In this document: positions 2,695-42,422 of the stretch, one piece after another
Layout of the letters: every line of letters begins with the position of its first letter
How positions within the stretch are numbered: the stretch's first letter is position 1
Made by a program: the position numbers and the translations under genes
Notes under the pieces: generated by a model
Database searches by the model: none
Told to the model about the DNA's origin: nothing
What the model saw: only the letters and a program-made list of their open reading frames with translations
Source of the DNA: Novosphingobium resinovorum
GTDB lineage: Bacteria > Pseudomonadota > Alphaproteobacteria > Sphingomonadales > Sphingomonadaceae
NCBI RefSeq assembly: GCF_001742225.1
Contig: NZ_CP017075.1
Coordinates: forward strand, 1,550,001 to 1,614,000
Reading direction: 5' to 3'
DNA length: 64,000 nucleotides

Positions 2695-2966
2695 ACACCC
2701 CTCTCCCCATCTTCTATTCCCGCATTGCCTGGGACGCGAAGGACGACCAGCTGGTGGCTGACGTTGTCGCCAAGAAGGTCGCGGTCGATGAGCTGTTCAA
2801 CCGGATGCCGTATCGCTCGTTCAAGGCGATCCGCCGTCGCTACGTCACCCATGGTCGGCCCGACGAGGAAACCCGCCTTCGACGCATGATGACGTTTGGT
2901 TCGACCGCGCTGCGCCGCTCACTGGAGGCCGAATATGCGCGGCGCGCCAATAACGCTGAGCGCTGA
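2691..2966 (+). CDS. Small SANT/GcrA-like putative DNA-binding protein
   Basis: 91 residues, starting in an ATGA overlap with thyA. The first 55 residues (a Trp near residue 14, a run of helices, then SFKAIRRRY) resemble the SANT/Myb-like or GcrA-type helix-turn-helix in which a Trp-containing first helix precedes a basic recognition helix. This is pattern recognition only. The C-terminus is very basic ([11 protein letters not shown]). The last 32 bases overlap the next gene. No family was recognised with confidence, so a transcriptional or DNA-packing role is a guess. Confidence 0.6.
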
Positions 2967-3339
2967 GATGTTCTGGCGCCCCGATCCCAACATCGATGCC
3001 GCCCGGCAACTGCCGGAATGGAAGCAATTCCACCGTCTCTGCGGGCAGCACGGTCTGGCGTTTGACGCGATCGAGCGCAGCGGTCGGAAGTACCAGTGCC
3101 GCGCCGTCCAGCCGAAGCGCACCGACATGGGCGGATGGATGTTCTTCGACCGGGGGCTGGCGACCGGGAAGACCGTGGTCGAGGCGATCCAGGCAGCCTT
3201 CCTGCAGTCGGGGATCGAAGTGCCGGGCGGCGCGGAAATGCTGGAACGCGGGTTGTGTGGTGCGCGGGTGTCAGCGCCGCAGCCAGATGATGATTTTGCC
3301 GACCTGCTCGGCGACGATTTCGAGGAGTTGTTGGGATGA
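2935..3339 (+). CDS. Hypothetical phage protein with tandem C-terminal LLG tag
   Basis: 134 residues. The start at 2935 is chosen because GGAGG sits six bases upstream, inside the preceding gene; another in-frame ATG at 2968 lacks a ribosome site. The body (about residues 10-110) has no motif I recognise. The C-terminus is distinctive: DDDFADLLG followed immediately by DDFEELLG, two copies of an acidic-Phe-x-x-Leu-Leu-Gly peptide that also ends other proteins of this phage. The final codons contain GAGGAG and merge into the ATG of the next gene (ATGA), so the tag DNA also serves as a ribosome site. Confidence 0.7.
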   Translation: MRGAPITLSAEMFWRPDPNIDAARQLPEWKQFHRLCGQHGLAFDAIERSGRKYQCRAVQPKRTDMGGWMFFDRGLATGKTVVEAIQAAFLQSGIEVPGGAEMLERGLCGARVSAPQPDDDFADLLGDDFEELLG

Positions 3340-4001
3340 CCCATATCATGTTCGACCTCGAGACCTGGGGTGTCACGCCCGGGTCCGATATTCGCAGCAT
3401 CGGCGCGGTCGTGTTCGACCCGCTCGCCGGGACGCTCGGTGCCGAGTTCTACGTCAATGTGAGCGGCGGCGCGCGTCACGGTCTAATCCGCGAACCGGAA
3501 ACCGTGAAGTTCTGGGACGACCAGCCAGAGGACACCGTCGCCCTTCTGCTTGAGAGCCAGGTGCCGATGGCAATAGGACTCGCCCAGTTCGCCGGGTGGC
3601 TGGAAGACCACGCAGGAACCGACCTCGGCCTCTGGTCGCACGGGCCCCATTTCGACGAGGCGATCCTGGCCGCCGTCTACCGCGCCGCCGGACAGACCGT
3701 TCCGTGGGGTCACCGAGCGCCGCGCGACACCCGGACCATCTACGAGGCGGCCGGGTGGCCCAGCATCCCGTTCCAAGGCGTGCAGCACTATGCGCTCGAC
3801 GATGCCCGCCATCAGGCTCGTGTAGTCAACGAGTCCTACCGGCGGCTGCTCGCGCCGCGTGAACTGCTGGCGGAATCCGGCGAGCTGTTCCGCTTCTACG
3901 AAGCCAGTCACCGGGCCAAACCGGCCACTGACGACACCATCTCCAAGGCCGAGCGCAACGCAGAGATCGCCGGCCGCATCGAAGGACTCCTTGCAGCATG
4001 A
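3336..4001 (+). CDS. DEDD-type 3'-5' exonuclease (Rv2179c-like)
   Basis: 221 residues. Exo I motif MFDLET (metal ligands D7 and E9), a middle segment LWSHGPHFDEAIL (Exo II-like Asp), and Exo III HYALDDARHQA with the His and Asp of the DEDDh class. The overall layout matches the Rv2179c/DUF5051 exoribonuclease-like family often found in phages, which trims 3' ends of RNA or ssDNA. Both ends are in ATGA overlaps with neighbours, so it is translated as part of the nucleotide-metabolism operon. Whether DNA or RNA is the natural substrate cannot be told. Confidence 0.85.
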   Translation: MTHIMFDLETWGVTPGSDIRSIGAVVFDPLAGTLGAEFYVNVSGGARHGLIREPETVKFWDDQPEDTVALLLESQVPMAIGLAQFAGWLEDHAGTDLGLWSHGPHFDEAILAAVYRAAGQTVPWGHRAPRDTRTIYEAAGWPSIPFQGVQHYALDDARHQARVVNESYRRLLAPRELLAESGELFRFYEASHRAKPATDDTISKAERNAEIAGRIEGLLAA

Positions 4002-4678
4002 CCCGCGGACGCCTCATCGCCCTTTGCTCCCCCGCCATGGGCTCGGGGAAATCCACCGCCGCCCAGTATCTGGTCGACCATGGCTACGACCTCGTAAAGT
4101 TTGCCGGGCCGCTTAAGCGAATGACACGCGCTCTACTGCGGTGTTGCGGCGTCAGCGGCATTGTCATCGACCGGTACGTGGATGGCGACCTCAAGGAAGT
4201 GCCGATTGGCGACCTTGGCGAGTTTCTGCCAGAGTATGCGGTCGCCATGCTGCAGGCGATGGGACCGGTGCCGGGTGCTGTCACGCTGACCCAGGGCGAG
4301 ATCATCGACAGCCTGGTCGAATGGGGTCGTGCGACCGTGGTGCCCGGTGTCACGTCGCGCCGGTTGCAGCAGACGCTCGGCACCGAGTGGGGCCGGGAGA
4401 AAATTCACACCAATCTCTGGGTGATGATCGCGATCGACGAGGCAGACCTGTCCCGTGCTGACGGTATCCATGTCGTGATCGACGATATGCGCTTCCCCAA
4501 CGAGTTCGAAGCGGTCGAGGCGGCAGACGGGGAATCCCGGCGGATCGTGCGTCCGGGGTTTGCGGTGACCGGCGGCGCGCACGCCAGTGAAGGGCAGCTC
4601 GACCTCATCCAGATGCCCGAAATCTGGAACACCGGCACTGTGGAAGATCTGCAGCGCGCCATCGCCGCGTTGCTGTGA
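3998..4678 (+). CDS. Deoxynucleoside monophosphate kinase
   Basis: 226 residues. The N-terminal P-loop PAMGSGKST begins near residue 13, followed by a KFAGPLKRM segment typical of phage dNMP kinases (T4 gp1-like fold). A central region of about 50 residues with GTEWGREKIHTNLWV corresponds to the lid/substrate part, and VIDDMRFPNE matches the conserved D-x-R-F-x-N-E motif of the family. It phosphorylates dNMPs to dNDPs, linking thyA upstream with nucleotide supply. It starts in an ATGA overlap with the exonuclease gene and is followed by 27 bases before the sigma-factor gene. Confidence 0.88.
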   Translation: MTRGRLIALCSPAMGSGKSTAAQYLVDHGYDLVKFAGPLKRMTRALLRCCGVSGIVIDRYVDGDLKEVPIGDLGEFLPEYAVAMLQAMGPVPGAVTLTQGEIIDSLVEWGRATVVPGVTSRRLQQTLGTEWGREKIHTNLWVMIAIDEADLSRADGIHVVIDDMRFPNEFEAVEAADGESRRIVRPGFAVTGGAHASEGQLDLIQMPEIWNTGTVEDLQRAIAALL

Positions 4679-4705
4679 GCACGGCATCAACTAAAAGGTG
4701 ATTCT

Positions 4706-5188
4706 GTGACTTTCGACCATGCCTACCGCAGCTACAGGGCACGTCTTGCCCACTACATCCGCCGCCGATGTGCGCAGACGCCCTTGGAGGCAGAGGATGT
4801 GCTGCAGGAGACGTTCTTGCAGGCGTGGCGCGCATGGTCGAACCGCACGACCGACAACGTCCTTGCCTGGCTGACCGGTGTCGCACGCCGCGTGTTTGCA
4901 CATCTTCTGCGCGAAGCGAACCGCGTCAAGCGTGGTGCCGGAAGCGACCATGTCTCGTGGGCCGAGGAAGACGATCAACGCGCTGCCCCAGCGCCGCAGG
5001 AGGCCGCAGTGCTCCTCGACCAGTTGCGACAGCGGGCGGTGACGCTCGGTCCCGCGCAGCGCGCTGCCGTGCTCGGTGTGATGAACGACCTTACCGTTTC
5101 CGAAATCGCCGAGCGTGGCGCCGTCAGCATTCAGTCCGTTTCCGCAGCCCTGAAGCTGGCGCGGTTGCGGCTCACCCATTTCGCATAA
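4706..5188 (+). CDS. Phage-encoded ECF-like sigma factor
   Basis: 160 residues from a GTG preceded by AAAAGGTG. Region 2 is clear: AEDVLQETFLQAWRAW around residues 28-43 (core RNA-polymerase binding and -10 recognition). Region 4 at about residues 112-157 contains the HTH segment LTVSEIAERGAVSIQSVSAAL. The linker is charged and short, as in ECF sigmas, and no anti-sigma gene lies next to it. A phage carrying its own sigma could direct host RNA polymerase to a set of phage promoters; the repeated 17-bp element found across this prophage is one candidate target, but nothing here proves that. It sits between dNMP kinase and nrdB. Confidence 0.82.
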   Translation: MTFDHAYRSYRARLAHYIRRRCAQTPLEAEDVLQETFLQAWRAWSNRTTDNVLAWLTGVARRVFAHLLREANRVKRGAGSDHVSWAEEDDQRAAPAPQEAAVLLDQLRQRAVTLGPAQRAAVLGVMNDLTVSEIAERGAVSIQSVSAALKLARLRLTHFA

Positions 5189-5200
5189 TTCGGAGTCAGC

Positions 5201-6220
5201 ATGCCCCTTCTCGAAGCTCGCAAAACGTACAAGCCGTTCGAATATCCGTGGGCCTATGACTACTGGAAGATCCAGCAGCAGGTCCACTGGCTGCCGGAGG
5301 AAGTGCCACTCGGCGAAGACTGTAAGGACTGGGCGCACAAGATCACTGACCAAGAGCGCAACCTGCTCACCCAGATTTTCCGCTTCTTCACGCAGGCCGA
5401 CGTCGAGGTGCAGGACTGCTACCACGAGAAGTACGCGCGGGTCTTCAAGCCGACCGAAATCAAGATGATGCTTACCTCGTTCTCCAACATGGAGACGGTG
5501 CATATCGCGGCCTATTCCCATCTGCTCGACACCATCGGCATGCCCGAGAGCGAATATGGCGCGTTCCTCGAATACGCAGCGCTCAAGGACAAGCACGACT
5601 ACCTGCAGACCTTCGGCGTCGATAACGACGAGGATATTGCGCGCACTCTCGCGATGTTCGGCGGCTTCACCGAGGGGTTGCAGCTGTTCGCCAGCTTCGC
5701 GATGCTCATGAACTTCCCGCGCTTCAACAAGATGAAGGGCATGGGCCAGATTGTCTCATGGTCGGTGCGCGACGAATCGCTGCATTGCGAGGGCATCATC
5801 AAGCTGTTCCACACCTTCGTGAAGGAGCGCGGCTGTCTTACCAAGGCCGTGAAGGACGACATCGCCGACCAGTGTCAGACGACCGTCCGTCTCGAAGACG
5901 CTTTCGTCGACCTGGCCTTCGAGATGGGGCCGGTCGAGGGTATGACGCCGACCGATATCAAGCGGTATATCCGGTTCATCGCTGACTGGCGCCTGAAACA
6001 ACTGGGGCTGGCGCCGATCTATCTCATTGAAGATCATCCTTTGCCCTGGCTCTCTGCCCTGCTCAACGGCGTGGAGCATGCGAACTTCTTCGAAGCCCGT
6101 GCGACCGAGTATTCCAAGGCCGCCACGACCGGCAACTGGAACGACGTGTGGGACCGGTTCGACACGCGCAGGTTGACCCGTGAATCGGAAAATACTGAGC
6201 TTACGAAAATCCTGAGTTGA
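5201..6220 (+). CDS. nrdB: Class I ribonucleotide reductase, beta subunit
   Basis: 339 residues. It houses the di-metal tyrosyl-radical cofactor used with NrdA to reduce NDPs to dNDPs. All expected ligands are visible: D67, E98, H101 (METVH), E158, E192 and H195 (RDESLH), and the radical Tyr Y105 (AAYSH). It is therefore expected to be active. The alpha subunit is not in the window; it may lie further left in the prophage or be supplied by the host. It begins 12 bases after the sigma-factor gene. A 170-base promoter-bearing gap separates it from the next gene, so it ends its operon. Confidence 0.95.
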   Translation: MPLLEARKTYKPFEYPWAYDYWKIQQQVHWLPEEVPLGEDCKDWAHKITDQERNLLTQIFRFFTQADVEVQDCYHEKYARVFKPTEIKMMLTSFSNMETVHIAAYSHLLDTIGMPESEYGAFLEYAALKDKHDYLQTFGVDNDEDIARTLAMFGGFTEGLQLFASFAMLMNFPRFNKMKGMGQIVSWSVRDESLHCEGIIKLFHTFVKERGCLTKAVKDDIADQCQTTVRLEDAFVDLAFEMGPVEGMTPTDIKRYIRFIADWRLKQLGLAPIYLIEDHPLPWLSALLNGVEHANFFEARATEYSKAATTGNWNDVWDRFDTRRLTRESENTELTKILS

Positions 6221-6333
6221 GATTCCGTTAAAGGATCACCGCTCGCAAAGTGGCAGATTTTCGCTGTTTTCGTAGCCTAAAAGCAAAGATGCCACATCAT
6301 CGCATGTTTATTTTTTCTAGGAATGATCGTCCA

Positions 6334-6366
6334 TTGACGCATGATTAAAATCAACCCATACGTGAT
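6334..6366 (+). promoter_or_regulatory. Promoter with phage 17-bp operator, upstream of gapR-like gene
   Basis: In the 170-base gap after nrdB, TTGACG at 6334-6339 is followed after 17 bases by CATACG. That -10 candidate lies inside the near-palindrome ATCAACCCATACGTGAT (6350-6366), one of eight copies of this element in the prophage. It ends 24 bases before the start codon at 6391. The rest of the gap (6221-6333) is AT-richer, with no gene seen. Confidence 0.6.
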
Positions 6367-6390
6367 TGGACTCGCCAAAAGGGATTCGCA

Positions 6391-6648
6391 ATGAGCACTA
6401 TCGGACACAATGGCGGCGAGGATAGCGACGACCGTCTGCGCCTGCTGATCGAGCGCGTCGAGCGCTTGGAAGAAGAGAAGAAGGGTGTCTCGGACGACAT
6501 CAAGGACGTCTACAACGAGGCCAAGGCTGTCGGCTACGACGTCAAGATCATGCGCAACATCGTTCGGCTCCGGAAGATCAAGCCCGACGATCGCCGCGAG
6601 CAGGAAATGCTCACCGAGACCTACATGGCTGCCCTGGGAATGATCTGA
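6391..6648 (+). CDS. GapR-like nucleoid-associated protein (DUF2312)
   Basis: 85 residues. The whole protein matches the GapR/DUF2312 pattern: a central coiled-coil helix beginning at RLRLLIERVERLEEEKK, then DDIKDVYNEAKAVGYDVKIMR and a C-terminal basic helix ending MLTETYMAALG. In Caulobacter, GapR clamps overtwisted DNA ahead of polymerases and helps topoisomerases. A phage copy could serve phage replication or transcription, or compete with the host's protein. It follows an operator-bearing promoter and is separated by only two bases from the next gene, so it leads a three-gene unit with the MT-A70 methylase. Confidence 0.9.
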   Translation: MSTIGHNGGEDSDDRLRLLIERVERLEEEKKGVSDDIKDVYNEAKAVGYDVKIMRNIVRLRKIKPDDRREQEMLTETYMAALGMI

Positions 6649-6650
6649 TC

Positions 6651-7034
6651 ATGGCTGCCGTTACTCCCCTTGAAGATTTGCTGCGGGCCGTATCCCTGCA
6701 GCGCGGCCGCATTGCGCTAGACCGTCTTCCGGATGGGGAGTGGGGCGCCGGAATCTACCCGTTCGACAACAGCCACCCGTCCTTCCACCACTTGGGTAAC
6801 ACCCACGGCGACCCGGTAGATGCGCTGCGTGCCGCCCTCATCGGGTTCGAACGCGAGGAGCGCGACCTAGAGCGGCGCTACCAAGCAGCGCTGCGCGAGA
6901 CCGGCGAGCACAACGCCCGCCGTCGCGCTGCCATGGCAGCAGTTTTCACGGAGCCGGACGCCGACGATTCGGACTCCTTCGAGGACGCTGTTGCCCCGGG
7001 CGCCGACGACGATTTCGGAGACTTGCTCGGATGA
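6651..7034 (+). CDS. Hypothetical phage protein with C-terminal LLG tag
   Basis: 127 residues. No domain was recognised. Residues about 55-95 are rich in Arg/Glu and probably helical (FEREERDLERRYQAAL). The last 30 residues are strongly acidic and end DDDFGDLLG, the peptide tag shared with several other proteins of this phage. The stop overlaps the methylase start (ATGA), so the two products are probably made in similar amounts. The position between GapR-like and MT-A70 genes suggests a role in handling phage DNA, but this is inference from context only. Confidence 0.65.
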   Translation: MAAVTPLEDLLRAVSLQRGRIALDRLPDGEWGAGIYPFDNSHPSFHHLGNTHGDPVDALRAALIGFEREERDLERRYQAALRETGEHNARRRAAMAAVFTEPDADDSDSFEDAVAPGADDDFGDLLG

Positions 7035-7693
7035 CTCAGGTCGCACGAATCAGCGGCGGTGCCTTCGATGGGCTGCGGCGGAATGGCTACGGCTTCATCA
7101 TGGCCGACCCTGCCTGGTCGTGGGTCAACTTCTCGGGGAAAGGGGCAGCCCCTCACCGGACGGAAGATGAACCATACCCCACCATGACGATCGAAGAGAT
7201 GGCCGCGCTGCCCGTCGCAGAGGTGGCGGCCAAGGACTGCGTTCTCATGATGTGGGTAATCGGCAGCCATCTAGACCAAGCGATCCAACTCGGTCGGGAT
7301 TGGGGCTTCGCGTTCAAAAGCGACGGTTTCGTCTGGGTGAAGGTCGGTAAGCATGATCCAAAAGTGCGCCCGATCAGCATGGGCAAATGGGTCCGTAAGC
7401 AGACCGAATACACGCTGATCTTCACGAAGGGTAAGCCGTCACGCCTCGACGCTGGCGTCCGGCAGCTTTTCGAGAGCGACGAGCACGTGATCTTTGCTCC
7501 CCGCCGCGAGCACAGCCGCAAGCCTGACGACCAGTACGATCGGTGTGAACGCCTTGCCGCCGGCCCATACCTCGAACTTTTTGCGCGCCAACAGCGACTC
7601 GGTTGGGACACGTGGGGAAACGAGACGACCAAGTTTGGCACCACGAACTTCGACGACCTGCTCGGCGACGAGTTCGAGGCACTGGTTGGCTGA
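7031..7693 (+). CDS. MT-A70 family N6-adenine methyltransferase
   Basis: 220 residues. Motif IV is DPAW (residues 26-29), a DPPW-type catalytic motif with Ala in the third position. It is followed by the family's YPTM and LMMWV segments, KWVRKQTEYTLIFTKG, and the C-terminal YDRCERLAAGPYLELFARQ-type AdoMet region. The permuted order (motif IV first) is typical of MT-A70 enzymes. No partner endonuclease is nearby, so it is an orphan methylase, likely protecting phage DNA or marking regulatory sites. It ends with the tandem tag FDDLLG plus DEFEALVG and overlaps the upstream stop. Confidence 0.87.
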   Translation: MTQVARISGGAFDGLRRNGYGFIMADPAWSWVNFSGKGAAPHRTEDEPYPTMTIEEMAALPVAEVAAKDCVLMMWVIGSHLDQAIQLGRDWGFAFKSDGFVWVKVGKHDPKVRPISMGKWVRKQTEYTLIFTKGKPSRLDAGVRQLFESDEHVIFAPRREHSRKPDDQYDRCERLAAGPYLELFARQQRLGWDTWGNETTKFGTTNFDDLLGDEFEALVG

Positions 7694-7749
7694 AGGAAAT
7701 TTCCTACGCCGAGAAAAGATTCGCCTGCTTCACCATAGGATATTTCCTA
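7694..7749. promoter_or_regulatory. Paired 13-bp palindromes upstream of winged-helix regulator
   Basis: AGGAAATTTCCTA at 7694-7706 and AGGATATTTCCTA at 7737-7749 are near-perfect palindromes differing at one central base, with starts 43 bp apart (about four helical turns). They occupy the gap before the regulator gene at 7781, the layout expected of an autoregulatory operator pair. They are unrelated to the 17-bp element found elsewhere in the prophage. Confidence 0.55.
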
Positions 7750-7780
7750 GACCGACGATTCATGGCAAAAGAGAACAAAC

Positions 7781-8161
7781 ATGGAACATGCTATTTTGCA
7801 AGACATCCGCCGTGATGAGGAGATCGTGGAACTTCGCAGTGAGGTTACCCGCCTGCGCGGCCTTCTTTTCGGAGGTGACGCCGCATTGGAAGCCCGGCTG
7901 CGACTCGCGCTGAACCTCACCCCAGGCGAGGCTTGGATTCTCGCAACGCTGTTCAAGGCCGGCGGTCGTGTCGTGTCGATGGAACAGCTGGCGGAAGGTC
8001 TTCCCGGTCACGGTGAAGCAGAGCGTCGGGGCAACGGAGTTCACGTTCGAATTTGCAGGATTCGGAAGAAACTGCCTTCGACAGAAACAATCCAGACACT
8101 TCGAGGGCTGGGTTTCTCAATTACTTCGGAAGCTATTGAATTTATTAATCATATTTGTTGA
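7781..8161 (+). CDS. Winged-helix transcription regulator (OmpR/PhoB C-terminal type)
   Basis: 126 residues. An N-terminal helix (about residues 8-30) could dimerise. Residues about 45-115 form a Trans_reg_C-like winged helix: LTPGEAWILATLF, a turn, SMEQLAEGL, then the recognition-helix segment NGVHVRICRIRKKL and the wing TLRGLGFSI. There is no receiver domain, so it is not a classical response regulator. Two palindromes immediately upstream are likely its own operator. It could be a master regulator of the right-hand phage genes. Base composition at the 3' end is AT-richer than neighbours. The start follows a weak ribosome site. Confidence 0.78.
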   Translation: MEHAILQDIRRDEEIVELRSEVTRLRGLLFGGDAALEARLRLALNLTPGEAWILATLFKAGGRVVSMEQLAEGLPGHGEAERRGNGVHVRICRIRKKLPSTETIQTLRGLGFSITSEAIEFINHIC

Positions 8162-8212
8162 CGCTCAATACTTGTGTCGGCTCTGACATTCGGGATCGGA
8201 AAGGGGAATACA

Positions 8213-8479
8213 ATGTTCGATTTTAAGCAGTTCGCGGGTCTGTCTTTTGTCGCGGAAGGCGACCTCTGGGCACCGGAACGTACCGGTGACTACTCGACTG
8301 ACTGCGCAACTGGTCGCCGTCATGCTGCTGAACTGATCGAGTTCATGCACCAGTCGGGCAATGCCCCGATCTTCGGGTCAGTGATCCGCCGCATCACGGA
8401 AAAGGGTCAGTTCGACGGCGTGGAGACTGGCTTCTGCGCGCAGTTCGGCATCACGCTGCTCGGCGCAGTGGCCTCATGA
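8213..8479 (+). CDS. Hypothetical phage protein
   Basis: 88 residues from ATG 8213, preceded by GGAAAGGGGAA; an upstream in-frame start at 8174 would place the ribosome site inside the coding region. It contains a TGDYSTDCATGRRHAAELIEFM segment that looks folded but matches no family I recognise. A TTGACG at 8158-8163 may act as a -35. It is the last rightward gene of the early block and converges with the leftward zinc-ribbon gene, overlapping its end by six bases with no obvious terminator between them. Confidence 0.65.
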   Translation: MFDFKQFAGLSFVAEGDLWAPERTGDYSTDCATGRRHAAELIEFMHQSGNAPIFGSVIRRITEKGQFDGVETGFCAQFGITLLGAVAS

Positions 8480-8704: not shown

Positions 8705-8742
8705 GCAGAGCGGATACCGCAAACAGAACGTTTGCGGAACAG

Positions 8743-9348
8743 TTACGCGGCCAGTGCAACACCGATGAGGAAGGAGCGAACTGCGCGCTCGTGCTGGAGT
8801 TCCAGTGCAAACCTCATTGGGTCTTTGACACTTTTCCGCTGATTGCAAACCGGGCATGCAATCGCAAGATTGTAGAGAGCATGTTCGCCGCCACGGGCCA
8901 ATGGGACAACGTGGTCCACATGGTAATCATCCGAGCAGTCAGCAGCGCACCAGACGCACGTAAATGTCTGAATTTCAAGCCACTCTCGAAGCTGAGCCGC
9001 CGTGCAGCCACCCTCAGTTTGGGACCGGCGCCGCGCCTTGTAATTGCGTATGATAGCCCGCCTGGCGGCAGGATTTCTCTTCGCCCAGTCAGCCACTTGG
9101 GCGATCCGGACTGACCGCTTCCGAGCGTATGAGTCTTGCTCGCGCAGCTGAATTCGGTCCCTGTTTTCAGCCACGTATCGGCGATCATACGACGCCTTCT
9201 TCGCCTTGGCTTCGGGAGTTTTAAGACGGGCTGCTTCAACGTTGCAGGGCCGGCACCATGGGTGAATGCCGCTCTTAGCTGACCGCTTTTTGCCGAACAT
9301 CTGGATCGGCTTGGATATGCGGCATTTAGTGCAAATCTTCGTCGTCAC
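8743..9348 (-). CDS. HNH endonuclease, probable homing enzyme
   Basis: 201 residues. An N-terminal zinc finger (CTKCRISK and later CRPCN) is followed by a basic helical linker (about residues 45-120) and a C-terminal HNH nuclease: CVWCAADC, YHVDHVVPLARGG (the HNH His-Asp-His core), then the CPVCNQRKS zinc knuckle. It starts in a four-base overlap with the metallophosphoesterase gene. Free-standing HNH genes of this type are common homing endonucleases that spread between phages by cutting alleles that lack them. No intron or intein boundary is visible around it. Confidence 0.85.
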   Translation of the reverse strand: MTTKICTKCRISKPIQMFGKKRSAKSGIHPWCRPCNVEAARLKTPEAKAKKASYDRRYVAENRDRIQLREQDSYARKRSVRIAQVADWAKRNPAARRAIIRNYKARRRSQTEGGCTAAQLREWLEIQTFTCVWCAADCSDDYHVDHVVPLARGGEHALYNLAIACPVCNQRKSVKDPMRFALELQHERAVRSFLIGVALAA

Positions 9349-12786: not shown

Positions 12787-12790
12787 CGGA

Positions 12791-28820: not shown

Positions 28821-29459
28821 TTATGGTGCACTCTCGGATGCGGCGGCGGTCGGCCACGGCCAATGGTTCGATTTTAAAGCGTTTTCCCGGGCGGTGAGGT
28901 ATTGTAGGTTTTCCGCGACGTGCAAGCCGCAGATGATGTGCTCGCCGTGCTCGTTCACTCCTTTCAGGGGAACGCGGTGATCCACCTGCATTCCGCCCGG
29001 GCAACCTGCATATATCTCACGGATAGCATCCATGTCCGCCCATGGTGGGGTTGCATGGCGGACACGCTTCATTCGAGCCTTTGTCGTCGCGGCGGGCACA
29101 GGAGAATTTGCGTAGTAGCGGCGCCTAATAGCGTTGACTATGGGTCGATTTTCTCGTTTCCAGATGGCCGCTTTTTCAGCAGACCTTGGCTTATTATCCT
29201 TATACCACTCCCGAGACGCCTCTTTGGCGTATTCAATGTTATTTTGTCGCCAAGTTTTATGTCGCTCTGCGGCGCGCGCTCGGAACGCAGGAACTTCATC
29301 TCTGCGCCGTTTATGTTTGGCAAGATCGCACTCTACGCATTTGTATGTACTTACGAAGCGCGGTGAAAAATGACCGTTCCTACATGGCAAGTCCGGCATA
29401 AACTGCTTTTCGCCGGCAGCAATGGCTGCGTCACGCGCCGCATTTCTTCGATTAGCCAA
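28821..29459 (-). CDS. HNH endonuclease, probable homing insertion in tail operon
   Basis: 212 residues from a TTG at 29,459 with no strong ribosome site. The N-terminal zinc-finger set is CRNGHFSPRF and CVECDLAKHKRR, followed by a long basic helical linker and a C-terminal HNH core: MQVDHRVPLKG with HIICGLHVAENLQYL and the final NALKSNHW. The middle (about 29,100-29,350) is clearly AT-richer than the surrounding phage genes, a sign of recent arrival. It splits tail-completion genes from the tail-tube gene. It is similar in layout, not identical, to the HNH at 8,743-9,348. Confidence 0.83.
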   Translation of the reverse strand: MANRRNAARDAAIAAGEKQFMPDLPCRNGHFSPRFVSTYKCVECDLAKHKRRRDEVPAFRARAAERHKTWRQNNIEYAKEASREWYKDNKPRSAEKAAIWKRENRPIVNAIRRRYYANSPVPAATTKARMKRVRHATPPWADMDAIREIYAGCPGGMQVDHRVPLKGVNEHGEHIICGLHVAENLQYLTARENALKSNHWPWPTAAASESAP

Positions 29460-33022: not shown

Positions 33023-33034
33023 GGGTCGTTCTCC

Positions 33035-36369: not shown

Positions 36370-36380
36370 GAACGCGAATT

Positions 36381-36418: not shown

Positions 36419-38614
36419 TCAACCCAGCAAGCTACCCAGCTGCTCAAGCGAAGTGCTCTCCGAAGCAGGCTTGGTGCCCCGGGCACCCTGCGCATCGAAC
36501 ACATGATCGTTGACGTCCCACTCGGCCGCCCACGACGGCGGCTGCGACCAGTCGAGACGATCAATCTTGATGTCTTTCATCCGCAGGAATGCGACGCAGT
36601 ACGCAGCCAAGTCGAATGCTTCATTGCGGCGGCGGCTGCGGTTCTCCCAGCCGGACTGCAGTCGGATTTCAGCCGTCAGCTGCGTGTAGAGCCAGTCGAT
36701 GTTTTCCAGTTCACCGGTCTCGACGTCGAACCATTCCGGGAAGTGAAACTGGCCGCCCGGCTCAGTGCGCCCGAGCATGTTCGAGACTTGGTCCTTGGCG
36801 ACGTTGGAATTGATCTTCCAGACCGGCACGTCGCCGCGAGCGATCGCCCATTTGTCCTTCTGCTGCGAATCGGGGTAATCGACGCGGATCATGTTGTCCT
36901 GCCGACTGGGCTCACCCTTCAGCAGATGGAACTTCATGTGGTAGTTCCGCTGCTCTGGATCATGCAGACGGAGGTAGCGCCAGAAATCGTAAGCGTTGGA
37001 CGTCACGGAAACCACCGGGCCGTCGAGCGCCTTGTTCAGCCGAACAGCTGCTGCGGATGCCGCGCCGCCAGAGTCGCAGGCCACCAGCTTCGCCTTCATG
37101 AAACGCCCCGACCCGTCGCCGAGCGGGTATTCACGCTCAATGACCTGGTCGATGAGAACGTGCCAGTCTTCCTTGAACGACGCCGGGTCCAGTTTCAGCG
37201 GGTGACCGTCAGCATCGATGCGGCGCGACTTGGTGATCTTCCACATGTCGACGTGGTAGACGTCCATGGACTGGGCGCCGCCTACCATTGTGACCGGAGC
37301 GATCCCGAACGTGTGGACGACAAAACTGTCCTTCTGGACGTCGACCGTGGTGACTAGGAACCGAACACCTTCCGGCACCTCGCCGCGGTAGTTGTAGGCC
37401 CGGGCGCGTTTTTTCAGTTCGTCCGGCAGGCGCCCAGCCTCAATCGACTTGGGCGTATAAGGCAGGCCGAACGAGGTGTTGGTCACGGCGCGCAATTTCT
37501 CTTCGCTGCCGGTTCGCTCGAAATCGGACTTGGCGTTGAGGTAGTTCAGCACCAGCTTCTGCCACGTGTTGAATGCCGCCGAGGGGCCTTTCAGCCAGAA
37601 CGACGCAATGTCCGACCGGCGCGGCTGCCCGACCACTGAGCCGTCCTCGAGCCAGATCTCCCCTTCCCGAAGCCAGCGGCCGTCGTGCTCGAGGTCGTGC
37701 TTGAGATCGGGGACAAGGCGGCATCCGTTGCCCGGGCATACCATGACCACCTGCTCAGCAGCGTCATGCGGATCTGCGGACGCCGGGTAATCGAACAACT
37801 TGAAGTCCGGCTCGAACTTCTGTCCGCAATGAGGGCACGACCAGTAGCGGCGGCGGCGGTCGCCCATGTTGTACAGGGACAGGATACCTTCGCACGGCGG
37901 TGCCTCGTGCGGCGAACTAGGAATCCACCGGGCATCGTTGACGTCGAAGCCCGGTGACGACTCCACCACGGTCATGGCGTATCGGCCCAGCGTCTCGCCG
38001 CGTTTCGACAGCAGCGTCCAGGCGTCGCCTTCGCCGTCGATGCTGAGCGGCAGGCGGTCGTAGTCCATCGCCCAGTTGCGACCGACCGTCTTACCGGAGA
38101 ATTCGTTGATCGACGGATGGACGATCGTGACGCGCATGCCGGAGATGAAGGTCTTGTCGAAGACGTTGTCGTTGACACGACCGGGCACCAGCTTTGCTCG
38201 GACATCGGCAGAATTGCGGAAGTGCTTGCGCAAATCCGACTGGGAGAACTCGCGCGCACGGCCCTGCGACATCTGGACCAGCATCATGTCTGCCGGGTCG
38301 CAGATCGCCGAATGCGACATCCAGTTCAGCCACATCTGCGACTTGCCGGTACGCGCCGGGCCGACAAATACCATCCCCTGGTAGGCCAGGCTGGTGAGCA
38401 CGTTCTGCGGCTCGACGAGATACGGCGTTTTGTCCTCGGACCAGAGGCCGGAGTAATTCTTCTCCTTGATCCGGACGTACTTTTTCGCCGCCTCGGTAAC
38501 GGTGATGCGCTCCGGCGGCGCGACCGCTTCAGTGGCGGCGGCGATCAGTTCTTCGAGCGACCGGTAACTGGCGGGCCGGTCCTTGACGAGCATCCGGCGG
38601 GCGGGCGCGCTCAT
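36419..38614 (-). CDS. Terminase large subunit (lambda gpA family)
   Basis: 731 residues. The packaging ATPase has Walker A GPARTGKS at about residues 85-92 and VQMSQGRAREFSQSD and MDYDRLPL (Walker B/C region) following. A zinc-finger-like CPHCGQKFEPDF and CPGNGC lies in the middle, as in gpA homologues. The nuclease region is in the C-terminal half (VTTVDVQKD with conserved Asp, VACDSGG). It cuts concatemers at cos sites and drives DNA into proheads. The last residues are LEQLGSLLG, a weak version of this phage's C-terminal tag. Confidence 0.94.
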   Translation of the reverse strand: MSAPARRMLVKDRPASYRSLEELIAAATEAVAPPERITVTEAAKKYVRIKEKNYSGLWSEDKTPYLVEPQNVLTSLAYQGMVFVGPARTGKSQMWLNWMSHSAICDPADMMLVQMSQGRAREFSQSDLRKHFRNSADVRAKLVPGRVNDNVFDKTFISGMRVTIVHPSINEFSGKTVGRNWAMDYDRLPLSIDGEGDAWTLLSKRGETLGRYAMTVVESSPGFDVNDARWIPSSPHEAPPCEGILSLYNMGDRRRRYWSCPHCGQKFEPDFKLFDYPASADPHDAAEQVVMVCPGNGCRLVPDLKHDLEHDGRWLREGEIWLEDGSVVGQPRRSDIASFWLKGPSAAFNTWQKLVLNYLNAKSDFERTGSEEKLRAVTNTSFGLPYTPKSIEAGRLPDELKKRARAYNYRGEVPEGVRFLVTTVDVQKDSFVVHTFGIAPVTMVGGAQSMDVYHVDMWKITKSRRIDADGHPLKLDPASFKEDWHVLIDQVIEREYPLGDGSGRFMKAKLVACDSGGAASAAAVRLNKALDGPVVSVTSNAYDFWRYLRLHDPEQRNYHMKFHLLKGEPSRQDNMIRVDYPDSQQKDKWAIARGDVPVWKINSNVAKDQVSNMLGRTEPGGQFHFPEWFDVETGELENIDWLYTQLTAEIRLQSGWENRSRRRNEAFDLAAYCVAFLRMKDIKIDRLDWSQPPSWAAEWDVNDHVFDAQGARGTKPASESTSLEQLGSLLG

Positions 38615-38838
38615 GCGAAACTCTGCCGAATTTCCGCGTAGAACGCAGCTGGCACGTAAAGTCTCGTGAGCTTGAATCTCGCGAGATCAATCGTCGGTGG
38701 CCACGGACCAGCGGCGACGATTTGCTGTCCGGCAAGTGCGAGGTAGTGGTCCGCCGGGATATACGCCGGTGCCTCACCAATCTGGACTGCGTACTCGACG
38801 AAGCCAAAAGGTGCGACTTGAACGGTGGCTTCAGTCAT
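38611..38838 (-). CDS. Hypothetical protein between terminase genes
   Basis: 75 residues from ATG 38,838, overlapping both neighbours (8 bases with the small terminase gene, 4 with the large). It is a compact mixed alpha/beta protein (MTEATVQVAPFGFVEYAVQI, then YIPADHYLALAGQQIVAAGPW, then FKLTRLYVPAAFYAEIRQ). I recognise no family. Location between terminase subunits suggests it is packaging-related. Confidence 0.55.
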   Translation of the reverse strand: MTEATVQVAPFGFVEYAVQIGEAPAYIPADHYLALAGQQIVAAGPWPPTIDLARFKLTRLYVPAAFYAEIRQSFA

Positions 38839-39613
38839 CGAAATCCCCGTCGTCCTCATCCCACGCCGGAATGTCCGGGTCGCCGTCAGGCTGCTCGGCG
38901 ATGCCGAACATCGGCTTGGCGAACATCGACCCAGTGAACTTCTGCTTGGGAAGATCGATCAGCTTTTCCCGAACTTCGCTGCGAAACTCGTCGATCGCGG
39001 CTGACAGGATTTCCGTCTGCTCGTCGGTCAGTTTCGCGCGGTCACGCATCTCCTCGACCACGGAGACGAGGCTGTCGTTGAAGATCATCGAGACCTCCCC
39101 CAGTGCCTGCATCACGTCTTCCGTTTCCCAGGCTTCCTGGGCTTCGATCTTGTACTTCACGCGGCTGCGCTGGCTGTCCCAGAAGGACTTATTGATCTCC
39201 GGCGGCAGGTCTGCCTTGTTGAGCGTCCGGGCAAATTCCTCGGCCGTCATCTTCGGCTTCACGAGATAATGAATCGCCTCGTGGAAGTAGTAGACCTTGC
39301 GGGTGCCGACGATCGCAGCCGGCCGACACTTCGCCAGGCGCTGGTTGACGGTCTGGGGGTCCATCCGCATCAGGCGCGCGAGGAAGTTTTGCGGCACCGG
39401 GTCGCCGAACTGATCGAGTCCCAGCGACTGGTGACCTTGGGCCGCTTTCCGCAGTTCTGCTTGATGGTTCAGTTCACTGGTCGCAGATTCACGGCGAGCA
39501 GCCAGTTCCGCATTGGATGGGCGACCGCGCTTTCGGCGCGGCTCGGCGACGAGGCTTTCGAATTCGTCCACGGTGTTAGCGAGCCGTCCGGTGGAACGTG
39601 TTGTTGCCGACAT
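38831..39613 (-). CDS. Terminase small subunit (gpNu1/DUF1441-like)
   Basis: 260 residues. Residues about 25-40 contain an AT-hook-like basic stretch (PRRKRGRPSNAEL). A helix-turn-helix at about residues 70-110 follows (PQNFLARLMRMDPQTVNQRLAKCRPA), the part that recognises cos/pac DNA; then a beta-hairpin-like KVYYFHEAIHYLV and long helices that likely oligomerise and bind the large subunit. The C-terminus is acidic (WDEDDGDFDD). It brings the large subunit to the packaging site. It precedes the large subunit with one small gene between. Confidence 0.82.
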   Translation of the reverse strand: MSATTRSTGRLANTVDEFESLVAEPRRKRGRPSNAELAARRESATSELNHQAELRKAAQGHQSLGLDQFGDPVPQNFLARLMRMDPQTVNQRLAKCRPAAIVGTRKVYYFHEAIHYLVKPKMTAEEFARTLNKADLPPEINKSFWDSQRSRVKYKIEAQEAWETEDVMQALGEVSMIFNDSLVSVVEEMRDRAKLTDEQTEILSAAIDEFRSEVREKLIDLPKQKFTGSMFAKPMFGIAEQPDGDPDIPAWDEDDGDFDD

Positions 39614-39761
39614 GCCAGTGGTGACAGAGGCGACAGCGATACACGATCATGCGGCCCTCGCGCTTATCCCGAGCACGACGGTGACGGCTGTGCTTCAGCA
39701 TGCGATCAGCCTCATCCCACGTCAGATACTGCGCTTTTCCGGTGCAACCAACGTGGACCAC
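39576..39761 (-). CDS. Small zinc-finger phage protein, first gene of packaging unit
   Basis: 61 residues from a GTG with AGGAGG five bases upstream. The C-terminal YRCRLCHHWHVGNN is a C-x2-C-H-x-W-H zinc knuckle found in many small alphaproteobacterial phage proteins; the N-terminus has the paired GCTGKAQYLTWDEAD. The gene overlaps the small terminase start by 38 bases. It is the first leftward gene after the operator at 39,788-39,804. Function unknown, perhaps nucleic-acid binding. Confidence 0.7.
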   Translation of the reverse strand: MVHVGCTGKAQYLTWDEADRMLKHSRHRRARDKREGRMIVYRCRLCHHWHVGNNTFHRTAR

Positions 39762-39787
39762 TACAACCTCCTGTTCGGAGTTTGCAT

Positions 39788-39804
39788 GTCACGTTATAGT
39801 TGAT
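39788..39804. promoter_or_regulatory. Phage 17-bp operator upstream of packaging genes
   Basis: GTCACGTTATAGTTGAT, reading leftward ATCAACTATAACGTGAC; the core TATAAC could be a -10. It ends 26 bases from the GTG at 39,761. No canonical -35 was found at 17 bases, so an activator or alternative sigma may be needed. The neighbouring 39,805-39,971 shows no gene; it is AT-richer and may hold a rightward promoter for the DUF2158 gene. Confidence 0.6.
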
Positions 39805-39971
39805 TGGTCAATCATAAGGTGTCTGGTGAGCTTCGGTTGCGTCTGATTACGTCTTGCCTCCGGATTGCGGCGTCGCAGCATCATGTGTAAAAATGGGACA
39901 CATATTCAGTGCCCCCCATTGCGGACCATCCGATAATCGCCATGCTAAGTGGACATCAGGGAGTAAGCACT

Positions 39972-40148
39972 ATGGCTTTTAAGAAGGGTGATGTAGTTCA
40001 ATTGAAATCGGGCGGGCCGAAGATGACCGTTGATGCGGTGACAGGCAGCACCACCATTCGCGTTGTATGGTTCGCCGGTTCAAAAATGGAAATGAAGCAC
40101 GTGGATAAGGATTCGATCCAAACTTATTCAGAGCCTGAGAAGAAATGA
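39972..40148 (+). CDS. DUF2158 (YodC-like) small protein
   Basis: 58 residues from ATG 39,972 (GGGAGTAAGC ribosome site). The sequence FKKGDVVQLKSGGPKMTVD followed by IRVVWFAGSKMEMKHVDKDSI is the DUF2158/YodC SH3-like pattern, a small beta barrel of unknown function found in bacteria and prophages. It is one of only two rightward genes between the packaging unit and the integrase, overlapping the next by four bases. Carriage beside the attachment end suggests a gene expressed in the lysogen. Confidence 0.8.
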   Translation: MAFKKGDVVQLKSGGPKMTVDAVTGSTTIRVVWFAGSKMEMKHVDKDSIQTYSEPEKK

Positions 40149-40405
40149 CGCCTCGCGAAGCGGCTGAATGGATGAAATCGACTGTCGAAAGTGAGGGTGT
40201 GTTATCCCAATTTCAGGCAGCGAGTGAACTATTGACCCGCGATGACGAGAAGCTGGCATATTACGACGACAGCGGAAACCTCTGCGTCGGTAAGCCGGTC
40301 CTGCAAGCATTCCTTAAGATCACGCCTGACCTCGTCTACGAACGATCGTCAAAACAGTGGTGTACGCGCCAAGACTATCATCTGCCTGGTCGGATGCAGT
40401 CGTGA
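40145..40405 (+). CDS. DUF6953-like small protein
   Basis: 86 residues starting in an ATGA overlap with the DUF2158 gene. Features are an N-terminal helix (TPREAAEWMKSTVESEG), a QAASELL helix, a YYDDSGNLCVGKPVLQAFL segment and a closing WCTRQDYHLPGR. I recognise this as the DUF6953 type, uncharacterised. A strong hairpin terminator follows six bases after the stop, so the pair forms a compact two-gene unit that is a lysogenic-conversion candidate. Confidence 0.65.
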   Translation: MTPREAAEWMKSTVESEGVLSQFQAASELLTRDDEKLAYYDDSGNLCVGKPVLQAFLKITPDLVYERSSKQWCTRQDYHLPGRMQS

Positions 40406-40410
40406 TCTAA

Positions 40411-40431
40411 CCGGGAGGGCGAGCCTCCCGG
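40411..40431. terminator. Terminator between convergent small genes
   Basis: CCGGGAGG and CCTCCCGG pair over 8 bp with a 5-base loop (GCGAG). It lies between the rightward two-gene unit ending at 40,405 and the leftward gene ending at 40,434, and probably serves both directions. Confidence 0.75.
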
Positions 40432-40433
40432 AC

Positions 40434-40685
40434 TCACCTCTTTCCAGCTTCCCGACGACTGCGCTCAATATCTTCCGTAGACAGCCCGCGGCCGCGAAAC
40501 TCGGTCAACAGCGATTGCTGCTCCGCATCGGTGCATAGAGTCTGAATGTAGCGCCAGCCATCAACGCTCCCGGTCGATACAGCCTGTCGGCATTTGTCGC
40601 TGACCCCGCTGCCGCGGGGACTCAACAAAACGATCGCCACGAAGGCAACCAACAGCAAACCGGCCACGGGGAGTATCTTTCCCAT
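40434..40685 (-). CDS. Small exported or membrane-anchored protein
   Basis: 83 residues. A hydrophobic N-terminus (LPVAGLLLVAFVAIVLL, residues 5-21) is a signal anchor, followed by a soluble part with two Cys (CRQAVSTGS, LCTDAEQQS) that could form a disulfide in the periplasm, and a helical C-terminus. No family was recognised. A promoter candidate lies directly upstream, so short that the mRNA would be nearly leaderless. It may be expressed from the prophage, for example in superinfection exclusion, but that is speculation from topology. Confidence 0.6.
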   Translation of the reverse strand: MGKILPVAGLLLVAFVAIVLLSPRGSGVSDKCRQAVSTGSVDGWRYIQTLCTDAEQQSLLTEFRGRGLSTEDIERSRREAGKR

Positions 40686-40694
40686 GGCCGGAGT

Positions 40695-40723
40695 GATTAA
40701 CAGTCGTTTGGTCGATCGGTCAA
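40695..40723 (-). promoter_or_regulatory. Promoter of small membrane-protein gene
   Basis: TTGACC (40,723-40,718), 17-base spacer, TTAATC (40,700-40,695) on the minus strand, with the start codon at 40,685. The predicted transcript start is within a few bases of the ATG. The -35 overlaps the end of the upstream gene. The 17-bp phage operator is absent here, so regulation should differ. Confidence 0.5.
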
Positions 40724-40959
40724 TTGGGCTCTGCGAGGGCCGCGTCGATCATCTCAACCCAGAAATCTTCTGGATAGACTGCCTGCCCAAAACTCACGGC
40801 TACCTGCTTCATTGCGTCGCTGGGCTCCCGCACAGCTTGCAGGACCGCTCGAACCTCGTCCTTTAGTTCCCGCTGCAACTCAGCGTCCAAAGCGTCCCAA
40901 TCGTCCGACCCGCTTTGCTTCTTCGCCAGTTCCCTAGCGGCGCGCTCGATAATGCTCAT
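40720..40959 (-). CDS. Small acidic phage protein downstream of excisionase-like gene
   Basis: 79 residues, starting in an ATGA overlap with the upstream gene. It is helical and rich in Glu/Asp/Ala (LAKKQSGSDDWDALDAELQREL, then EVRAVLQAVREPSDAMK). The C-terminal FWVEMIDAALAE is common in small phage proteins of this group. No known function. The ribosome site is the GAGGAG in the LLG-tag codons of the excisionase-like gene, so expression is tied to it. Confidence 0.65.
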   Translation of the reverse strand: MSIIERAARELAKKQSGSDDWDALDAELQRELKDEVRAVLQAVREPSDAMKQVAVSFGQAVYPEDFWVEMIDAALAEPN

Positions 40960-41165
40960 CCCAGCAACTCCTCGAAACCGTCTCCGAGTACCGACATCTG
41001 CCAGTTCTGGACGACATTGGAAGGCCAGAAATTCATCGACGAGCCGGGATACTTCCGCGGCGCTGGAAACCGTTGCTCATCGACTCTGCGATAGATCTCT
41101 GACTTTGAGAGTCCGGTCACTTCGCAAACGCGCTGGAGGCGCCAAAATTCGAGTTGCTGTCCCAT
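40956..41165 (-). CDS. AlpA/excisionase-like DNA-binding protein with LLG tag
   Basis: 69 residues from ATG 41,165; an ATG at 41,174 overlaps the promoter -10 and is unlikely to be transcribed. The winged-HTH AlpA pattern is plain: FWRLQRVCEVTGLSKSEIYR, VDEQRFPAPRKYPG, then a W-x-x-x-V-x-x-W end. Such proteins act as excision directionality factors or regulators of the integrase. It ends GDGFEELLG, the phage's C-terminal tag. It is just downstream of the integrase stop, and both read leftward; its own promoter lies between them. Confidence 0.82.
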   Translation of the reverse strand: MGQQLEFWRLQRVCEVTGLSKSEIYRRVDEQRFPAPRKYPGSSMNFWPSNVVQNWQMSVLGDGFEELLG

Positions 41166-41173
41166 GGGCACCA

Positions 41174-41202
41174 TGGATATTCAACTTTTGCGTGACTGTC
41201 AA
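41174..41202 (-). promoter_or_regulatory. Promoter with operator filling the spacer, excisionase-like gene
   Basis: On the minus strand TTGACA (41,202-41,197), then exactly 17 bases (41,196-41,180) that are a full copy of the phage operator (GTCACGCAAAAGTTGAA), then TATCCA (41,179-41,174). A protein bound there would block RNA polymerase. The predicted start point falls near ATG 41,165, implying a leaderless mRNA. Confidence 0.68.
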
Positions 41203-42422
41203 CCGAGGAGCTGGCTGAACTCGTCTTCCACGGCGCTCTGAAGACTGTCATCGACAGCCTGTGATCGCCTAGTCGCAAGCAGCTTCGCCCACCAATTCAT
41301 CATATCCCGGCGGCCGGGCAGCCACTCGGCAGAGTTGTAGGCACCGCGAATCTTGTTCTCTTCCACGTGGGCAAGCTGGCGCTCCACCCAGTCCTTGTTC
41401 CAACCGGCCTCGTTGGCGATCGTTGATGCGGTGCCTCGGAAGCCATGGATCGTTGCCCGACTGTGATACCCCATTCTGTAGATGCCGTAGAGCATAGTGT
41501 TCTCTGACATCGCTTTGCCTTTGAGTCCGGGGAAGATGTACCGAGAGGATCGCGGAAGGCGTGACAGGACGTCAGCGGCCGCCGCTGAGAGCGGGACGAG
41601 GTGTTCACGGCCCATCTTCATCCGCGGTGCTGGGATGCGCCACAGCGGTGCCTCACCGCCGAGCCCTTCGATCTCAGACCACTCGGCAAACCGCGTTTCG
41701 GAAGTGCGCACCCAGGTGAGCAGGGTGAACCAGATTGCATCCTTGGTCAGAACGTCACCGTCGTACCGATCGAGACGCTGCAGGAATTCCGGCAACTCGT
41801 CGTCAGCAAGCGACGGCATGTGCGTGACCTTTGCCTTCGGCTTCATGGCTTCCAGCAAGTCGGCAGATGCAGGGTTGTTCTCGACCAGTCCGGACGCCTT
41901 TGCATACCGGAAGATTTGATCACAGGTCTGACGCAGTCGCCGCGCGATATCCAGCGCGCCTCGGTCCTCCACCTTGCGGAGCATCTCGAGGATTTCGGGA
42001 GCCCGGATGCCGGCCACGTGCCGATTACCAAAGATTGGGTACACGTCCTTTTTCAGACGGTTCTCGACGCGCAGGATATGGGCGGCGTCTTTGCCCACCT
42101 GCCACAGCCCCAACCATTCCCTGGATACGCTATGGAATGTCTGGGAAGACTCTACGACCTCCTGCTTCCGGACTTCCGCCGGGTCATGGCCGAGGTGCAG
42201 CTGGGTGCGCGCCTCCTGTCGCAGTTCCCGCGCCTTGGCGAGAGATACAGAGGGGTATGGGCCGAGCGAAAGCGTCTTCTGCTTGCCATCGAATCGGTAG
42301 GCCAACCGCCACAGCCGCGATCCATTAGTCTGTACCAGAAGGTGCAAACCCTCGGAATCCGTCAGTTTGTAAGCCTTGTCGCGCGGCTTCGCATTGCGGC
42401 AGGTAGTGTCAGAAATCGGCAT
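41199..42422 (-). CDS. int: Tyrosine integrase, P4 type (DUF4102 N-terminus)
   Basis: 407 residues from ATG 42,422; the frame is open to 42,596 but that part runs into the tRNA. The N-terminal DUF4102 arm-binding domain covers about residues 1-90 (MPISDTTCRNAKPRDKAYKL, LSLGPYPSVSLAKARE), the core-binding domain about 100-200, and the catalytic domain after 210 (RTSETRFAEW with catalytic Arg, HGFRGT as H-x-x-R, HVEENKIRGAYN with the likely nucleophile Tyr). It integrates the phage into the tRNA-Met gene 140 bases to the right. It ends EDEFSQLLG, the C-terminal tag. Confidence 0.92.
   Translation of the reverse strand: MPISDTTCRNAKPRDKAYKLTDSEGLHLLVQTNGSRLWRLAYRFDGKQKTLSLGPYPSVSLAKARELRQEARTQLHLGHDPAEVRKQEVVESSQTFHSVSREWLGLWQVGKDAAHILRVENRLKKDVYPIFGNRHVAGIRAPEILEMLRKVEDRGALDIARRLRQTCDQIFRYAKASGLVENNPASADLLEAMKPKAKVTHMPSLADDELPEFLQRLDRYDGDVLTKDAIWFTLLTWVRTSETRFAEWSEIEGLGGEAPLWRIPAPRMKMGREHLVPLSAAAADVLSRLPRSSRYIFPGLKGKAMSENTMLYGIYRMGYHSRATIHGFRGTASTIANEAGWNKDWVERQLAHVEENKIRGAYNSAEWLPGRRDMMNWWAKLLATRRSQAVDDSLQSAVEDEFSQLLG

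Follow-up and report, generated by a model that had tools for sequence, protein, structure and literature searches.

A short acidic-hydrophobic peptide on the DNA-acting proteins of a Novosphingobium prophage and its relatives, spelled by each phage in its own way

Why would proteins as unrelated as a methyltransferase, an excisionase and an integrase end in nearly the same few residues? The question is raised by a prophage of Novosphingobium resinovorum, most of which lies in the window, the stretch of 64,000 nucleotides that we analysed (positions 1550001-1614000; coordinates below count from its first letter). A first-pass annotation had pointed to an ending of acidic residues and F-x-x-L-L-G on several of the prophage's proteins. 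We followed this ending, which we call the tag, through the prophage and its relatives. The tag system is real, it lies at the level of the protein and it is specific to the phage. Its carriers are proteins with a function on phage DNA and small unknown proteins, with hardly any structural ones. We believe that the tag serves for docking, as a short linear motif whose copies in any one phage are read by the same partner, and we put the probability of this reading at about 0.7.

The tag and its carriers

The prophage has one end at the integrase, next to a tRNA-Met gene (42564-42640), and its gene content suggests that about 20 kb more of it lies upstream of the window. Genes were called with a longest open reading frame (ORF) heuristic, so some starts and some genes will be wrong; gene ends are set by stop codons. 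All five of the strong C-terminal tags that had been reported are present in the translations. The first is a tandem, DDDFADLLG (3286-3312) and DDFEELLG (3313-3336), on s123, a plus-strand protein of 123 residues and unknown function; the gene had been placed at 2935-3339, and its end stands while the ATG at 2968 is a plausible start instead (2968-3339). A second small protein of unknown function, s127 (6651-7034, plus strand), ends in DDDFGDLLG (7005-7031), and its stop overlaps the start of an MT-A70 DNA methyltransferase (7031-7693, plus strand) with the tandem FDDLLG-DEFEALVG (7649-7690). On the minus strand, a tyrosine integrase (41199-42422) ends in EDEFSQLLG (41202-41228) and an AlpA-like excisionase/regulator (Phage_AlpA) in GDGFEELLG (40959-40985). 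The frame of the latter, annotated as 40956-41165, actually extends to 41174.

Our strict rule required F..L[LIVM]G at the end and two or more acidic residues between positions -11 and -3. Eight of the 87 called prophage genes pass, against a mean of 0.002 and a maximum of 1 when the last 20 residues were shuffled 2000 times. The set is bigger than had been noted, with three more strict carriers upstream of the window: a DpdA-like queuine transglycosylase (phrog_887; EDFERLLG), a C5 methyltransferase (DEFEALLG) and a NADAR protein (CEFAALLG). The same upstream region holds a DNA polymerase (phrog_1252), a single-stranded DNA-binding protein (SSB) of the Enc34/gp2.5 type, a DUF2800 exonuclease, a small protein that we named p208 and a Prim-Pol/VapE primase-helicase. 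Relaxed ends were found on SSB (DDDFG), p208 (DDDFG) and the exonuclease (EFEDLDD), and the linker of the primase has the relaxed copies DEFDDLDDD and GEGFDDLVG. The terminase small subunit (TerS; 38831-39613, minus strand; phrog_141, E 3.6e-32) has its copy near the N-terminus, VDEFESLVA (39545-39571). In the whole host genome, DF[ADEG][DE]LLG followed by a stop matches two prophage genes only.

The exact spelling is uncommon outside the clade. In IMG/VR, DDF[ADEG][DE]LLG followed by a stop was found at 8 loci, against 3 for the reversed peptide, and the tag is at an ORF end in three of the eight (L006, L008 and L012), of which L008 and L012 are this same prophage; we rejected the exact spelling as a widespread motif. 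An initial set of 79 primase loci, many of them from distant VapE phages, gave strict tags on 4 of 1719 genes (0.07 in shuffled tails), three of the four in this prophage. The SSB family is present in 5 of 385 genomes of the class, own genome included, and the genome collection yielded one relative, L215.

The exact-pattern scan did surface G001, an independent 66.5-kb phage with many tags. Its primase has one in the linker (GDGFEDLLG) and one at the end (DEELDLLG), and others are found on SSB (DDDLLG), the p208 homologue (DDDDLMG), the DnaQ exonuclease (DDDIDLLG) and three small proteins near GapR (NDDFEDLLG, DDDLGGLLG, DDDGFDDLLG). One of its methyltransferases has two copies, and its TerS starts MSDEFEDLLGG. 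Further relatives were gathered through primase and polymerase homology, using search patterns without the tag, and 16 records were fetched; a scan of SSB loci that did use a tag-like pattern was kept out of the statistics. Five pairs among the polymerases of 17 phages are at least 60% identical, and the closest are G386 with this prophage (75%) and G390 with G391 (65%). Ruegeria phage DSS3-P1 (Casjensviridae) is among the relatives of the prophage terminase large subunit (TerL), at 46% identity.

Enrichment over shuffled tails in relatives, which the first-pass annotation had proposed as a check, was found. For this we used a general rule, hydrophobic-x-x-hydrophobic-hydrophobic-G with at least two acidic residues at -11 to -3, and took as structural those protein clusters with a member at 9000-36200 of the window or in the corresponding stretch of G001. 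Outside these clusters 43 of 1408 proteins are tagged (0.27 in shuffled tails), and inside them none of 269 (0.04 in shuffled tails; Fisher p 0.001). With the stricter F..L rule the counts are 15 and 0 (Fisher p 0.15).

A loose rule gives the distribution by family. Tag-like ends are most frequent on SSB (14/16), p208 (11/13), MT-A70 (5/6) and s123 (6/8; the family was seen in 8 of 18 phages), followed by AlpA (6/13), integrase (6/14), the MT438-type methyltransferase (5/10), helicase (3/7), DnaQ (3/9) and the C5 methyltransferase (3/10), and they are few on primase (3/18), the TerS C-terminus (2/14) and the DUF2800 exonuclease (1/18). The protein of the prophage is one of the tag-like members in the MT-A70, AlpA and integrase counts. 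None were found on polymerase (0/17), repressor (0/17), GapR (0/9) or ThyA (0/6). The loose rule also matches TerL (5/15) and a small helix-turn-helix (HTH) protein (5/17), whose tails do not follow the code of their phage, and single cases of NrdB (1/1), a nucleotide kinase (1/10) and DUF210 (1/15), which we took for false positives. The polymerases, untagged as they are, end in AA after a hydrophobic run in 10 of 17 phages.

The tag is not tied to one position in the protein. A motif lies within the first 40 residues of TerS in 9 of 14 cases, when 0.2 are expected from shuffles. The TerS of DSS3-P1 begins MSDDLSIDDLLGG, with a SIDDLLGG that also makes up two of the three copies in the primase linker of this phage, and the TerS of Rhodobacter phage RcSalem begins MTTDLTDLFS. 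Tandem copies occur on s123, MT-A70 and the G001 methyltransferase, and there are also two copies in three relatives of s123. In G001, G390, G391 and DSS3-P1 both SSB and primase are tagged at the C-terminus, and several other primases have a linker copy.

Spelling within each phage

The last residues differ between phages and tend to agree within one. In both G390 and G391 the integrase, AlpA, C5 methyltransferase, primase and SSB have endings in IG, as does MT-A70 in G390 and p208 and s123 in G391. G393 has MLG on integrase, MT-A70 and s123 and PLG on SSB and p208, and G398 has IF or LF endings. The two cultured phages with tags have different codes. In RcSalem, V or I takes the place of G: integrase GDTELLV, methylase gp52 NDELLV, gp55 EGLLV, gp56 DDLFV, gp22 methylase DGLIV, DnaQ exonuclease gp7 SELLI and p208 SDALV. 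DSS3-P1 uses DLLG or LLA, with SSB GDDDLLG, exonuclease VDDLLG, p208 homologue DDDDILG, primase IEDLLG besides its linker copies, gp30 VDDLLS, gp80 DISDLLA and two methyltransferases ending in ALLA.

To put numbers on this agreement, we shuffled tails among 18 phages within each family and scored the similarity of the last five residues. SSB and p208 tails of the same phage have a similarity of 23.0 against 5.4 when shuffled (11 pairs, z 6.9). The four core families (SSB, p208, DnaQ and primase) give z 4.8 over 65 pairs, eight accessory families z 4.6 over 140 pairs, and accessory against core z 3.1 over 240 pairs, while control families give 0.0 and -0.6. When the phages of the discovery (this prophage and G001) are left out together with the close relatives G386 and G391, accessory against core is z 3.5, accessory against accessory 3.4 and SSB against p208 5.8. 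Adding RcSalem and DSS3-P1, for 20 phages, gives 3.4, 4.7 and 7.0, respectively. Taken as single families, AlpA, MT-A70 and s123 are significant. Same-phage matching tests of this kind remove shared ancestry only in part.

TerL does not belong to this system as far as we can tell. Its end LEQLGSLLG (gene at 36419-38614, minus strand), which had been listed as a weaker tag, is present, and as a tag carrier TerL is not supported (TerL against core z -1.1; against accessory families z 1.4, p 0.09).

Docking, its candidate partner and the alternatives

As a docking motif, the tag would consist of acidic residues followed by hydrophobic-x-x-hydrophobic-hydrophobic-small, placed mostly at the extreme C-terminus and at times near the N-terminus (TerS), in a flexible linker (primase) or in tandem. 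Copies in one phage would bind one partner and so gather the tagged proteins at the site of phage replication, and since the pocket of the partner would differ between phages, the spelling would drift in concert on all of its clients. The concerted variation, the N-terminal and linker copies and the absence from 269 structural-cluster proteins all argue for the kind of role that had been proposed from the window, docking of the kind known from SSB tails and clamp-binding peptides.

The likely partner is a component of the replisome. We tentatively rank the untagged phage DNA polymerase first, although we think it somewhat more apt to be wrong than right, because SSB is tagged and the polymerase untagged, as in T7 and unlike T4. 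The next candidates are a host replisome protein, for instance the beta clamp, and the SSB/p208 module itself. SSB of the prophage matches Pfam Enc34_ssDNA-bd (E 2.4e-11), and its AlphaFold model (mean predicted local distance difference test score, pLDDT, 89) matches Enc34 (5odl, E 3.4e-9) and T7 gp2.5 (1je5, E 2e-5), which points to an OB-fold of the Enc34/gp2.5 type. Its acidic C-terminal tail, DEFDDLDDDDDIGGASTTTAAADDDFG, is unstructured in the model, with tail blocks at pLDDT 52-69. The model of p208 is a long helix and a small helical domain, with no match in the PDB at E <0.001.

We also looked at co-divergence with the tails over 35 families. The best for SSB/p208 tails was a repressor (L003:18794-19483, HTH_3; r 0.52, p 0.001); with accessory tails its r was 0.44 (p 0.056). 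For p208 the value was 0.48, and two clusters from the structural region reached 0.45-0.47. The repressor value may reflect coincidence, common ancestry or a clue to the partner, and we take the comparison as no identification.

There are several observations that weigh against docking on one shared partner or against parts of it. Without G386, G390 and G391, accessory against core drops to z 1.6 (p 0.058) for the set of 18 phages and to z 1.8 (p 0.039) for the set of 20; accessory families among themselves give z 3.4 in the latter. Integrase, C5 methyltransferase, MT438, TerS C-termini and DpdA are not significant one by one, and the DUF2800 exonuclease (z 0.8) and helicase (z 0.2) are off-code. 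Untagged homologues are frequent (8 of 14 integrases, 7 of 13 AlpA and 7 of 10 C5 methyltransferases are not tag-like). In RcSalem, SSB ends in LLDF and the primase and excisionase ends are untagged; in DSS3-P1 the integrase is untagged and gp55, in a head-gene region, ends in GEDLLG. TerS N-termini agree with the tags of their own phage (13 phages, p 0.0006), but residues 61-100, taken as a control, also give p 0.023, and the signal may be partly composition or number of tags. The AlphaFold model of SSB places the tail without confidence. Tail type does not follow SSB-core divergence (Mantel r -0.10) and, against the polymerase as hub, it does not follow polymerase divergence (Mantel r 0.03) and the polymerase of the distant phage L207 has a tag-like end, GEDL.

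We weighed four other explanations. The tag codons can be read as a ribosome site (for example GAG GAG TTG TTG GGA TGA, a Shine-Dalgarno sequence with an ATGA junction), and the peptide would then be a by-product of its reuse. Such junctions do exist in the prophage: s123, s127, AlpA, DpdA and the C5 methyltransferase end in GGATGA, overlapping the start of the next frame, and ribosome-site reuse may add constraint there. However, NADAR, SSB, p208 and MT-A70 end without such a junction. The first-pass annotation held that neither the methylase nor the integrase has a gene directly behind it, which is right for MT-A70, where the next frame is 87 nt away, and not fully so for the integrase, where the AlpA-like gene follows on the same strand 24 nt past the stop. 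It also named conservation only at ribosome-site-forming tags as a point that would tell against a role of the protein, and the tag is not limited in this way: for 37 of 70 tagged genes, no ORF of at least 60 codons begins on the same strand within 25 nt of the stop (a permissive ORF recount; our own gene calls had given 50 of 71). In addition, the TerS and primase-linker copies cannot serve a downstream start, and the last residues shift per phage in concert (I, M or L before G; V for G in RcSalem). Given the 37 of 70, the tags without a junction and the N-terminal and linker copies, we rejected ribosome-site reuse as the sole cause; it cannot explain the tag and we find it scarcely credible. 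Proteolysis, which had also been suggested, fits worse than docking. Hydrophobic C-termini can be signals for AAA+ proteases, and integrases and excisionases can be protease substrates, so the tag might be a C-degron or adaptor site by which its carriers are removed at some defined stage. But SSB and primase are required all through replication, there are N-terminal and linker copies, and a concerted per-phage code would be unexpected because host proteases are conserved, which makes a proteolysis signal very improbable in our view.

The tail might instead act in cis, as an acidic mimic that only reduces the unspecific DNA binding of its own protein, with no common partner. Most tagged proteins of known kind are DNA-acting, and an Enc34 SSB lacking 21 C-terminal residues binds double-stranded DNA according to the excerpt of PMC5686142. 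Such a mimic does not predict phage-specific hydrophobic endings common to unrelated proteins, nor does it predict that polymerase, GapR and repressor are untagged, and we think it improbable. As another possibility, the tags might bring proteins to the host beta clamp, acting as degenerate clamp-binding peptides (x-x-[SD]-L-[FL]). The consensus for binding to this clamp is QL[SD]LF, and the ends SDIFD, DDLFG and SDLFQ resemble its last residues. T4 puts similar hydrophobic-acidic C-termini on its own clamp (excerpt of PMC2988020). The beta-clamp model PF02768 has no match in 17 phage records and is matched in 11 of 14 control genomes, and the gp45 model PF09116 has no match anywhere, controls included, and is thus uninformative. 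None of the listed tags has Q in the first place of the motif, a conserved host pocket leaves the concerted per-phage code unexplained, and the codes of RcSalem (Rhodobacter) and DSS3-P1 (Ruegeria) differ. We consider the host clamp an unlikely explanation.

Known systems and other features of the prophage

Docking tails on replication proteins are known from other phages and from bacteria. The C-terminal tip of bacterial SSB, an acidic peptide with a hydrophobic tip, is an interaction hub of DNA metabolism; there one carrier has many reader partners, while the prophage clade has many carriers and presumably one reader. According to the excerpt of PMC2988020, gp43, gp55 and gp33 of T4 bind the sliding clamp gp45 by interchangeable hydrophobic-acidic C-termini, a similarity that is not kept in all phages of the family. 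Unlike these three epitope proteins, which include the polymerase, the clade has more tagged proteins, an untagged polymerase and extra copies near N-termini and in linkers. T7 is closer: acidic tails of gp4 contact basic patches of the polymerase gp5 (excerpt of PMC12593628), and the tail of gp2.5 is implicated in contacts with polymerase and primase-helicase (excerpt of PMC5686142). The T7 ends are DEDGDF (gp2.5) and NDTDF (gp4), and an acidic-DF end occurs only on these two among the 32 T7 proteins that we inspected. As in T7, SSB (of the same predicted fold type as gp2.5) and, in some of the phages, primase have an acidic, hydrophobic-tipped tail and the polymerase is untagged; unlike T7, methyltransferases, integrases, excisionases, TerS and small proteins have the tag as well, and its spelling changes with the phage. 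For protein import into the phage nucleus, the excerpt of PMC11087766 reports that a conserved signal sequence is lacking and prefers a recognition surface as the explanation. The likeness would lie in recruiting phage DNA proteins to a replication compartment in a species-specific way, with recruitment being a prediction here, but the clade uses a plain short peptide.

We found no earlier report of the tag in these phages in the literature searched, which included excerpts of PMC3556154, PMC7824862 and PMC10684548. The tag system would extend the shared replisome tails known from T4 and T7 to more proteins and to a phage-specific code. At slightly less than even odds, we suggest that each lineage marks the ends of its DNA-acting proteins, accessory ones included (integrases, excisionases, methyltransferases, the DpdA-like base-exchange enzyme and TerS), with a docking code of its own, much like a zip code, by which they come together on a single co-evolving hub or condensate at replicating phage DNA. 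If so, a protein of foreign origin would enter the factory once it has gained the local tag, and differing codes would keep the machineries of phages in one cell apart. The tail principle of a few T4 and T7 replisome proteins would become a phage-wide addressing that links replication, DNA modification, integration and packaging, with a hint at how phages hold DNA enzymes on their own DNA. Interactions would be predictable from genome sequence, and a tag on a small unknown phage protein would suggest that it is DNA-acting. Since DSS3-P1 and RcSalem are cultured and tagged, this is testable now.

Some other features of the prophage are worth recording. The DpdA-like transglycosylase, C5 methyltransferase and NADAR protein (L002:1497-2585, L002:4902-6695 and L002:12770-13225) and MT-A70 in the window are all tagged, and their combination in one prophage suggests that the phage DNA is modified. 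Adjoining tagged genes is a GapR-like DNA-binding protein (6391-6648, plus strand), itself untagged, which is present in 16 of 16 related phage records searched and also in DSS3-P1; it may be a core function of this phage clade. The position of the tRNA-Met gene beside the integrase suggests the attachment site, but a search of the 40 kb upstream gave no copy of 18 bases from this region. Two endonuclease-VII/HNH-type genes, at 8743-9348 (phrog_1035, E 1.6e-28) and, among the structural genes, at 28821-29459 on the minus strand (E 3e-10), are possibly free-standing homing endonucleases.

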